Shown: positions 2,135 to 4,745 of the stretch, in pieces
Layout of the letters: each line of letters starts with the position of its first letter
Position numbering within the stretch: position 1 is the first letter of the stretch
Virus record (IMG/VR): IMGVR_UViG_3300050821_019997
Coordinates: 1-37,449 of that record
Source of the DNA: a virus
Direction: 5' to 3' (one strand)
Length of the DNA stretch: 37,449 bases
Program-made: the position numbers and the translations under genes
The notes under the pieces: model-generated
Seen by the model: the letters and a program-made list of their open reading frames with translations, nothing else
The model's database searches: none
Told to the model about the DNA's origin: nothing

Positions 2135-2611
2135 CTACTCACTCACCCCAAAACGCCGAATCCTCTGTATTCTCGGTTGGTCCCCATGGCTCAACCGTTC
2201 AAATTCGGCTTCTGCCCCCATCAGATCCAAGGCATCTTGCCCTTCTTGGACCCTATCCTCGGGTAGGACATAGTGGCGTCTAAGGGTCGAATGCATGTAC
2301 TTATCCCCGGCATGCAAGGGAACGTCATAAAAGGGGTCTGTAGGCCCGTTTACGAGGTTTAAGGGATGGGTATCGTGGTTACCATGACTATGGTGTCTTC
2401 GATGGCCTCTAGGGCTTTCTTGGTGGTTTACGATGACGATGTTAATGGGTGGGGCTTCTGCATGAGGTTCCCCATGGAGAACCACCCCATGTGCAGCCGG
2501 CGGGTCGTCCCTATCATGCTCATTGTCTCGGTTTCGCCCAAAGCAGCTGGCACAACCAGCGGTAATGAAGCGTCCGATACGGATGAGTAACGCCAATATG
2601 AGTTCCCACAT
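2135..2611 (-). CDS. Membrane-anchored His/Pro-rich protein (158 aa)
   Basis: ATG at 2611 with AGAGG 8 nt upstream. Residues 1-22 form one hydrophobic segment (MWELILALLIRIGRFITAG) followed by a CASC motif, so the protein is a signal-anchor or, less likely, a lipoprotein. The rest is soluble and low in complexity: a DNEHDRDDPP stretch, a His-rich GHRRHHSHGNHDTH run near residue 72, then a mixed C-terminal part. It converges on the RHH gene with 3 nt between stops. Not a recognised spanin or holin. His-rich segments may bind metal. Coding status is supported by the start region rather than by homology. Confidence 0.55.
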   Translation of the reverse strand: MWELILALLIRIGRFITAGCASCFGRNRDNEHDRDDPPAAHGVVLHGEPHAEAPPINIVIVNHQESPRGHRRHHSHGNHDTHPLNLVNGPTDPFYDVPLHAGDKYMHSTLRRHYVLPEDRVQEGQDALDLMGAEAEFERLSHGDQPRIQRIRRFGVSE

Positions 2612-2664
2612 GATGCACGCCTCTTGAAGATGCCCCGTCTTTAGCGTAGCACAAAAAGGGACAG

Positions 2665-2728
2665 TGGAAAGGGAAGGATTTGAACCTTCGAAGGCAGAGC
2701 CAACAGATGACCACTTGGGTACCTTTCC
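2665..2728 (-). pseudogene. tRNA-Tyr remnant lacking the anticodon arm
   Basis: Read on the minus strand (2728 to 2665) the 64 nt have a perfect 7-bp acceptor stem (GGAAAGG/CCTTTCC), a canonical T arm (GAAGG-TTCAAAT-CCTTC), discriminator A, a class-II variable arm (GGC-TCT-GCC) and the start of a Tyr-type D arm (TACCCAAGTGGTCA). The sequence jumps from the D loop straight to ATCTG, the 3' side of a tRNA-Tyr anticodon stem. About 17-18 nt (rest of D arm, 5' anticodon stem, anticodon) are missing, and CCA is not encoded (CTG instead). It cannot decode. It lies at the 3' end of the structured RNA region. Confidence 0.75.
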
Positions 2729-2745
2729 GTTGAAAGGCCAATATG

Positions 2746-3264
2746 CCAGCCGTTTAAGACGGCTGGATACCGGGATTCTGTAGTGAAGCGGAGAGCTTGC
2801 ACACTACATCAACGATTTCATCAATATTTGCGCGAGATACCCCGACCTTTAGGTCGGAGAGGGATAGCGCCTCTTTCTCACTTCTCCTATGATTAAGGCT
2901 ATCGTTAAAACCGTGTTGGTTTTTGTTTTAGGTCCAAACAACCCCAGCCTATTACAGCGCTTAATAACGCGCTTATCGCTAAGCGCGTTAAATACTCCTA
3001 TTGCTAGGGTGGTGCGTATCGGTTACGTCGGAGTCATAACCCAATCCGTCTTCCTCTCGACGAGATAAACCGCCTTTGCGCATGGGGTTGTCTGTTTCCT
3101 TCCACACAGAAACATCTGCTTCCCCACGATAGTGCTTAGGACTGAGGCGGCATCCTAAGGTATCTGTATGCGGTCTATCGTTTACGAACAACTCACTCTC
3201 CTGTCCGTCGTCTGGTCAACCTGAGCTTTTACAAGCTCCGCCTTTTAAGACGGGGTGATTGACC
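2746..3264 (-). ncRNA. Candidate large structured RNA (about 520 nt)
   Basis: No convincing gene fills 2729-3280. The minus strand holds many perfect stems. Stem 3259-3264/3214-3219 closes two hairpins, one capped by a GTAA tetraloop (3223-3238). Stem 3180-3175/3132-3127 encloses 3159-3153/3141-3135. Stem 3126-3122/3087-3083 encloses 3114-3109/3098-3093. A 10-bp stem (2989-2980/2975-2966) has a GCGA tetraloop. Others are 2857-2852/2847-2842, 2807-2802/2785-2780 and 2766-2759/2753-2746. It lies directly after SSB and ends beside the tRNA-Tyr remnant. The size, GNRA loops and tRNA neighbour recall GOLLD/ROOL-type phage RNAs, but I cannot show homology. A 67-aa frame (2988-3191, TTG start with AGGAG upstream) overlaps it and may be fortuitous. 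Confidence 0.55.
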
Positions 3265-3280
3265 GTAGCATAGAGGCTTC

Positions 3281-3709
3281 CTAGAAGGGAATTTCCTCGT
3301 CGCTGAAGGGTTCAATATGGACTAAGGGCATCGGCTTACCTTCAGAGTATTGGGTGCCTTGGGACTGCTGTTCTTTTAGGCTTTCCACATTGGCGACAAT
3401 GACTTCGGTGGTATATACCTCAACCTCATCTTTATTTTTGTATTTACGGGTTTGGAGTCGGCCTTGTACCATGATGCAGTCATCTTTTCGTAGTTGTGCA
3501 TCACGTATATAGTCGGCCATACGACCAAAGGCAGAGATTTTATGGTATTGGTTGATTTCCTTGGGTTGTCCGGTTGTCTTGTCTTTAATTTCATCTTTGG
3601 TGATGAGCATGAAGCTAGCAACGGAGCTACCTGAATCACCGAAGGATCGGATGGTAGGATCGGAAAAGAGATGTCCGACCAGTAATACTTTATTTACGCC
3701 TTTAAACAT
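3281..3709 (-). CDS. ssb: Single-stranded DNA-binding protein
   Basis: 142 aa. N-terminal OB fold beginning MFKGVNKVLLVGHLFSDP, a standard SSB opening (N-K-V-L-L-V-G-x-L), with KISAFGRMADY and VQGRLQTRKYK in the usual places. The C terminus is SDEEIPF, the acidic tip through which bacterial SSBs recruit host replication and repair proteins. It coats ssDNA during phage replication and recombination and probably works with the ERF annealing protein (6992-7579). Third gene of the operon from the promoter at 4828-4856, following the two RNase H-like genes. Confidence 0.95.
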   Translation of the reverse strand: MFKGVNKVLLVGHLFSDPTIRSFGDSGSSVASFMLITKDEIKDKTTGQPKEINQYHKISAFGRMADYIRDAQLRKDDCIMVQGRLQTRKYKNKDEVEVYTTEVIVANVESLKEQQSQGTQYSEGKPMPLVHIEPFSDEEIPF

Positions 3710-3712
3710 TAT

Positions 3713-4195
3713 TTACTCCAAGCTCGTTGTGACATAAGGGATGATTTTCCGTTTTTGTTTCAGTTCATTTAGTGTATTTATGGCCATATCTTTTACTTCA
3801 TCTTGCTTTGGGTATTTGGACGTAGTTATTTCCAGGCGCCATTTAATCAGATGGCCATTCATGAGGTTGACCAAATCTTGCCAGAGATCCATATTCTTCA
3901 CTGGCTTCCTTTCTTTGGTATACCAACCCTGTCTTCTCCATGAGTCCAGCCAAACCGTACCGCCTTTATATAAATATTCAGAATCGGTAATAATGACCAC
4001 CGTAGAGCATGGCTTAACACGTCTCATCCCAGCAATCGCTGCACATAATACCATGCGATTCTCAGTCGTTTCCCACTCAAATCCAGTCAAACAGCTCTTA
4101 TCATGACCATTATGTAAAATCATAGCCCATGCGCCCATACCAAAGTTTCCCTGACACAGACCAGAAAGATATAATGCAAAGGGTTTATCGGACAT
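3713..4195 (-). CDS. RNase HI-fold protein, catalytically degenerate (160 aa)
   Basis: The sequence can be laid along bacterial RNase HI from start to end: YLSGLCQGN (for FTDGSCLGN), TTENRMVLCAAI (for TTNNRMELMAAI), ITDSEYLYKG, then WRRQGWYTKERKPVKNMDLW, and a D-containing last helix. Of the four catalytic carboxylates, the first Asp is Ser11 and the Glu is Val49, whereas Asp71 and Asp136 remain. The His loop GHAGHPENE is replaced by TSKYPKQDE. It is therefore probably not an active two-metal nuclease. It overlaps the preceding gene, a second degenerate RNase H, by 11 bp. Binding of RNA:DNA hybrids or a structural role is a reasonable guess. Confidence 0.85.
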   Translation of the reverse strand: MSDKPFALYLSGLCQGNFGMGAWAMILHNGHDKSCLTGFEWETTENRMVLCAAIAGMRRVKPCSTVVIITDSEYLYKGGTVWLDSWRRQGWYTKERKPVKNMDLWQDLVNLMNGHLIKWRLEITTSKYPKQDEVKDMAINTLNELKQKRKIIPYVTTSLE

Positions 4196-4745
4196 AAAAC
4201 GCTTCTTTAACGAGCCGCTTCACCTTTCTTACATGTTGTCGATGGGAGGGGGTCGGCATCGCACAGGTAACTTCATGTAGACTCATAAGGGATTCTAATA
4301 TAAGCCACAAATCTTTATTCGCGGTATATCCGCGTGCGTTTATGGTACCATGCTCGCTTTTGGTGCATCCATTAAGGACGTAATCAGATGAGGTAATCAG
4401 ATGAACAATAGATTTGCTCTTGAGCGCCTTGAAGCCTTCAATGGCTGCCTGCAAGTACATGCGATTAAAAGTAGCATCAGAAGATATGCCCGATAACTGC
4501 TTCTTCTTGTCCCCACACACCAGCACAACACTCCAAGCAGAAACCGTTTTTTTATCAGAAGCATCAATGTACATGAATACCGGAGAACCATATGTTTTAG
4601 ACTTGGTTATCGGTTTGAATTCTACCTTAGATGTATTGGGTGCTATGGGATTCAATCTTGCTCGTGTGAATCTTTCTAAACATCGTTGCACAGGACTAAT
4701 AGGATGAGGATAGCTGATTTCTTCTTTTGATGGATATTGACGCAT
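4185..4745 (-). CDS. RNase H-like protein, second degenerate copy (186 aa)
   Basis: About 54 N-terminal residues of unknown nature precede an RNase H-like domain: MYIDASDKKTVSAWSVVLV (first Asp kept, D61), FNRMYLQAAIEGFKAL (catalytic Glu replaced by Tyr97), LITSSDYVLNG (second Asp replaced by Ser119), RGYTANKDLW, and a basic last helix with no Asp. Three of four metal ligands are gone. First gene after the promoter at 4828-4856. Together with its neighbour (3713-4195) it forms an unusual pair in which different catalytic residues survive. Function unproven; cooperation with SSB in replication is suggested by the operon only. Confidence 0.75.
   Translation of the reverse strand: MRQYPSKEEISYPHPISPVQRCLERFTRARLNPIAPNTSKVEFKPITKSKTYGSPVFMYIDASDKKTVSAWSVVLVCGDKKKQLSGISSDATFNRMYLQAAIEGFKALKSKSIVHLITSSDYVLNGCTKSEHGTINARGYTANKDLWLILESLMSLHEVTCAMPTPSHRQHVRKVKRLVKEAFYVR

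Follow-up and report, generated by a model that had tools for sequence, protein, structure and literature searches.

The window analyzed here, i.e. the whole 37,449-nt stretch of viral DNA, very likely contains a HEARO/IscB element that has no ORF. Our interpretation as a whole, which is favored on balance and with some reserve, is that this is a 441-bp non-autonomous IscB (HEARO/ISC) phage element that would work in trans. The RNA family is already known, and this is an ORF-less, phage-borne member of it. HEARO was described bioinformatically by Weinberg et al., and the name omega-RNA comes from Altae-Tran et al. (PMC9755519 cites both). It is the omega-RNA of IscB, an RNA-guided nuclease that is thought to be the ancestor of Cas9 (PMC9755519, PMC9640706), and an omega-RNA structure with OgeuIscB is available (PMC9640706).

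Identity and fold of the RNA

A covariance-model search matched minus strand positions 3263-3048 (216 nt) to HEARO, Rfam RF02033, over the full model (1-211 of 211), scoring 94.2 bits (cut-off 83). The original prediction had proposed an RNA of possibly new class in this region, naming HEARO only among the models to be checked; the RNA is, however, of a known type, the guide scaffold of IscB nucleases, and no new class is involved. In the Rfam scan that had been proposed, HEARO was the sole family to exceed its cut-off inside the stretch, with no match there to GOLLD, ROOL or introns.

That a structured RNA is encoded on the minus strand of 2746-3264, as predicted, is supported both by folding and by covariation. 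In the proposed comparison with shuffled controls, the 519-nt minus strand folds at -186.7 kcal/mol, versus -149.9 +/- 6.3 kcal/mol for 100 dinucleotide shuffles, none of which equaled it (z -5.8). The signal is strand-specific, since 3048-3263 has a z of -3.05 on the minus strand (0 of 200 shuffles equal or better) versus -0.21 on the plus strand (79 of 200); the adjoining 3047-2823, i.e. leader, spacer, and right end, gives a z of -3.76 by itself. The minimum-energy fold of the single window sequence largely reproduces the Rfam HEARO consensus helices, to which the predicted stems, including a three-way arrangement at 3264-3214 with a GTAA loop at 3229-3232 and nested stems at 3180-3083, also broadly correspond. 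The window RNA accommodates 66 consensus pairs, 59 of them standard and 7 non-standard.

In an alignment of seven sequences (the window, Psychromonas, Photobacterium, two Pseudoalteromonas, Shewanella, and one viral contig), 27 pairs have changed on both sides, versus 13.3 +/- 2.6 in shuffles, and the covariation score is 0.323, versus 0.155 when shuffled and 0.05-0.11 with the pairing partners displaced by 1-3 columns. With 20 sequences the score is 0.335 versus 0.149 shuffled. The HEARO consensus helices are maintained by compensatory change in relatives, including the marine gammaproteobacterial ones. A 67-aa frame at 2988-3191 had been named as the feature against which the RNA should be judged. 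The frame exists in the window and Psychromonas is open at the equivalent place; it is broken in most near relatives (Photobacterium, both Pseudoalteromonas, and one viral relative), either by stop codons or by indels that shift the frame, and a conserved gene at this position was rejected.

Anatomy of the element

As judged from its sequence features (Table 1), the unit is a 441-bp mobile element rather than the RNA alone. It is taken to span 3263 to 2823, because a profile of right ends, which drew on 16 other elements and not on the window, places the end at 2873-2818 on the minus strand (nhmmer, E 1.4e-12), closing in GATGA; this is the only significant place in the window, the next best having an E of 1.7. 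The predicted single RNA of ~520 nt is accordingly shorter than proposed: 3263-3048 is RNA, 3047-2823 (~225 nt) makes up the element's body plus its right end, and 2822-2746 (~75 nt) is phage DNA flanking it.

Table 1. Features of the ORF-less element and its surroundings, in window coordinates
Feature	Position	Strand	Basis
HEARO RNA, the IscB omega-RNA scaffold and also the left end of the element	3048-3263	-	RF02033 94.2 bits, fold, covariation
Presumed 16-nt guide, AAGCCTCTATGCTACG, directly 5' of the scaffold	3264-3279	-	Analogy with OgeuIscB (PMC9640706)
Leader of the lost iscB with ribosome-binding site, AGGAGTATTTAACG	2986-3016	-	80.6% identity to Shewanella L054
GC-rich inverted repeat, AACGCGCTTAGCGATAAGCGCGTT, at the expected iscB start codon; T-run absent behind it	2965-2990	-	Sequence, self-match, fold
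Right end with imperfect hairpin, CTCCGACCTAAAGGTCGGGG	2823-2873	-	nhmmer, profile of 16 other right ends
GATGA, presumed TAM/target-site sequence beside the right end	2818-2822	-	Same motif in 16 other elements
SSB gene, C-terminus DEEIPF, upstream of the element	3281-3709	-	Pfam SSB E 2.4e-22; phrog_44 E 2.5e-30
Predicted uninterrupted target site of the window element, CTATGCTACG joined to GATGAAATCG (left and right halves)			

ATGA, mostly as GATGA, stands behind the right ends of all 16 other elements in the profile, and DtIsrB, a relative, uses NTGA as its target-adjacent motif, or TAM (PMC9581776). IscB elements on Shewanella, Pseudoalteromonas, and Cupriavidus plasmids have the order RNA, iscB, right-end hairpin, ATGA. 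In the window, ATGA is likewise present behind the right end, with no evident gene after it.

At the other end, the SSB gene ends at 3281 and the element follows, so the nucleotides lying between gene and scaffold are the presumed guide. In OgeuIscB the guide is ~16-17 nt long and lies 5' of the scaffold (PMC9640706), and both position and length fit a role of the window segment in directing IscB to DNA, which is presumed by this analogy. The guide has no further match in the window, even when three mismatches are allowed.

Loss of the nuclease gene

The 31 nt assigned as leader, lying between the RNA and the right end, match sequence just before the start of iscB in Shewanella L054; after this leader the start codon and gene are gone, with non-coding DNA in their place. 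Besides the leader and right end, no convincing protein or DNA match to an IscB remnant was found inside the element. The IscB domain (PF14239) is absent from the 37.4-kb record, which may be a fragment, so that iscB or tnpA could be located beyond its ends; the same search matched no control genome, yet finds IscB in 20 other viral records. A tblastn search of the record with four IscB proteins gave nothing. The Y1 transposase TnpA (PF01797) is also absent from the 37.4-kb record, again possibly a fragment, as it is from many IscB elements (PMC9755519). The window element, with intact RNA and both ends but with the nuclease gene lost, is non-autonomous and, because its own nuclease gene is lost, could act only with a nuclease from another element.

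Comparison with known systems

With the HEARO RF02033/IscB omega-RNAs the window RNA shares the full-length match, the helices, the 5' position of the guide, and an ATGA beyond the other end; it differs in that no IscB ORF lies behind it and in that it is phage-borne. In an RNA tree it groups with the IscB elements of Shewanella aestuarii pPN3F2_1, Pseudoalteromonas translucida pMEGA, and a Photobacterium MAG, i.e. it sits among IscB-bearing relatives (clade support 0.94). The window element has a right end similar to those of the marine gammaproteobacterial IscB elements, as well as the iscB leader of Shewanella, but these elements encode an IscB of ~410-460 aa, whereas the window element is only ~440 bp in total and ORF-less.

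HEARO/IscB systems are known from viral or prophage contigs (PMC9755519), HEARO appears in the annotation of Silviavirus phages (PMC13346280), and HEARO RNAs in Limnospira have been set aside as mobility remnants (PMC8400943). No papers on ORF-less or guide-only omega-RNA elements in phages were found in a literature search that did not cover the original HEARO and OMEGA papers. Both of the latter reportedly mention RNAs distant from any ORF.

Other ORF-less elements

A HEARO pattern search of IMG/VR gave 56 stretches, and of 50 records searched 30 have HEARO over the cut-off and 20 have IscB; as these counts derive from exact-pattern retrieval, they are not frequencies. Six viral records (G080, G087, G005, G076, G059, and G068) resemble the window in having the RNA, no ORF, the right end, and ATGA, all within ~340-405 nt, and in that no IscB was detected within their 30-40 kb. 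By contrast with these likenesses, their RNAs fall in other groups than that of the window: those of G076, G080, G087, and G005 form one group (support 0.79). ORF-less RNAs thus occur in separate groups of the tree, and therefore, as judged from sequence, iscB has probably been lost more than once. The five top-scoring RNAs of the viral set (135-157 bits) all come from records without IscB; RNA scores, which may depend on the make-up of the Rfam seed, are given little weight here.

In G005 (L042) a terminator-like hairpin with T-run (GCGGGGTCGAAAGACCCCATTTTTT, ~1760-1785) occupies the place of iscB, as if the guide RNA were its own transcription unit; the window lacks such a feature. The 140,449-base IMG/VR record G077 has three HEARO RNAs (at 64521, 84932, and 104754) and one IscB, and is a candidate for one IscB serving other guide RNAs in trans inside one genome.

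Among 296 bacterial genomes from the order around Psychromonas, IscB adjoins most of the HEARO RNAs for which this can be judged. One of these genomes (G248) has two diverged RNA copies without adjoining IscB beside one complete copy; one of the two IscB-less copies has a weak right-end match (E 0.001).

Insertion-site preference

In 20 of 33 HEARO elements (a set including the window, at 3264-3279, and L111, L112, L042, L125, and L129), one of the Shine-Dalgarno cores GGAG, AGGA or GAGG occurs at a distance of 18 to 2 nt ahead of the RNA, versus 1-6 of 32-33 at other distances. In G080, G087, G005, G059, and G068, a phage frame begins at the ATGA behind the right end. The guides of sister phages coincide with the region where ribosomes bind ahead of a phage gene; the insertion sites themselves vary between phages. 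The Shine-Dalgarno core before the RNA and the frame start at ATGA behind the right end together suggest that HEARO/IscB elements tend to insert between the Shine-Dalgarno sequence and the ATGA start codon of a gene. Placed in this way, an element would have a ribosome-binding site as its guide and a start codon as its TAM.

An uninterrupted site for the window element was sought in several ways. The exact pattern of guide plus NATGA has no occurrence in IMG/VR. Joined flanks, searched for the window and three sister elements (G080, G087, and most of G005), had no match in phage records in the case of the window, and no DNA resembling the window stretch was found in those records. The 20-nt palindrome of the element revealed no other copies of it, and the SSB protein no direct relatives in IMG/VR. 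Terminase relatives (35 loci) give no usable empty site, because their SSBs are at most 36% identical and none of the 33 records searched has HEARO. For G080 an approximate empty site is provided by the phage record MW202867.1, where a gene related to the downstream one has its Shine-Dalgarno sequence immediately ahead of the ATGA, with no HEARO intervening.

Possible function and alternative interpretations

The chances that the window element can still work in trans appear to us evenly balanced. In the route envisaged, the omega-RNA would be transcribed by read-through out of the SSB gene; this is assumed because no convincing promoter was found near the RNA (three promoter-like sites in 2600-4300, versus 3.0 expected in shuffles). 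This RNA could then be bound in trans by a related IscB that the host, a plasmid or a co-infecting phage supplies, and the complex may cut genomes with an uninterrupted site, i.e. the guide sequence followed by GATGA. Repair from an element-bearing genome would copy the element in, amounting to homing or retention in trans, as extrapolated from known IscB and TnpB. For the element to move to new ATGA sites, a Y1 transposase would have to be supplied in trans.

A less likely reading, but one to be taken seriously, is that the element is a dead relic, from which iscB was deleted and which is neither moved nor used any more, decay being yet to come. Of iscB only the leader remains, a second copy of the element was not found, and its RNA scores 94 bits versus 97-157 bits in other ORF-less phage RNAs with both ends, all of which would fit such a relic. 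Against this, the element has an intact RNA, guide position and TAM as well as its two ends, and at least six further phages have elements of the same ORF-less kind (with four of the RNAs falling into a single group), a recurrence that would be odd for independent corpses. The recurrence in phages may also be read as a sign of domestication, the RNA no longer being a self-serving element but directing the IscB of a host against rival phages in which the site is uninterrupted, or regulating neighboring genes. Although the fixed location behind an essential-type gene (SSB) and the ribosome-binding guides of the sister phages would suit this proposal, it is very unlikely, in that a domesticated RNA would not need the two transposon ends and the TAM that are retained, insertion sites differ between phages, and the guide lacks a second target in this genome.

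The large ornate RNA of GOLLD or ROOL type that was originally suggested, i.e. a new RNA related to one of these, can be practically discounted. Like the window RNA, GOLLD and ROOL are structured RNAs near phage genes and tRNAs (PMC12286853), and the size, the many stems, and the tRNA relic nearby had pointed to them; the window RNA is, however, much smaller and matches neither model (a search at E up to 10 brought up neither of them), HEARO lacks order when its protein is absent, and what remains of the stretch belongs to a HEARO element, as its body and right end. The relic, which had been noted as a neighbor, is indeed present at 2665-2728 (-), with 29.1 bits versus a cut-off of 29 and no call by ARAGORN, but its proximity is probably a coincidence: the relic is not part of the element, and in the stretches checked around six sister elements ARAGORN calls no tRNA.

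Returning to the interpretation of a non-autonomous element acting in trans, if it is correct the nuclease has been dropped more than once, in phages, implying that omega-RNAs can be stand-alone units in trans. A broader proposal is put forward tentatively and is, at present, doubtful: that phages carry a distinct class of nuclease-free, guide-only omega-RNAs, borrowing IscB in trans from hosts or competing elements, either to home into phage genomes that have the uninterrupted site or to destroy them, with the window as one independent instance. The ORF-less elements form a small, testable set of loci bearing on what omega-RNA elements do for their carriers. Cas9, together with its guide RNAs, likely descends from IscB and the RNA that guides it.

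Other features of the window

The tRNA-like relic is shortened in its middle, from the D to the anticodon arm, and is probably an internally deleted tRNA. From its 5' end it is perhaps a tRNA-Ser. Between 8079 and 18105 there are several long frames (538, 483, 364, 734, and 430 aa) without a PHROGs match; for three of these a Pfam scan likewise gave no match. Next to SSB stand two different, adjacent RNase H genes, at 3713-4195 (-) and 4185-4745 (-); the pair may possibly have arisen by a tandem duplication that has since diverged.
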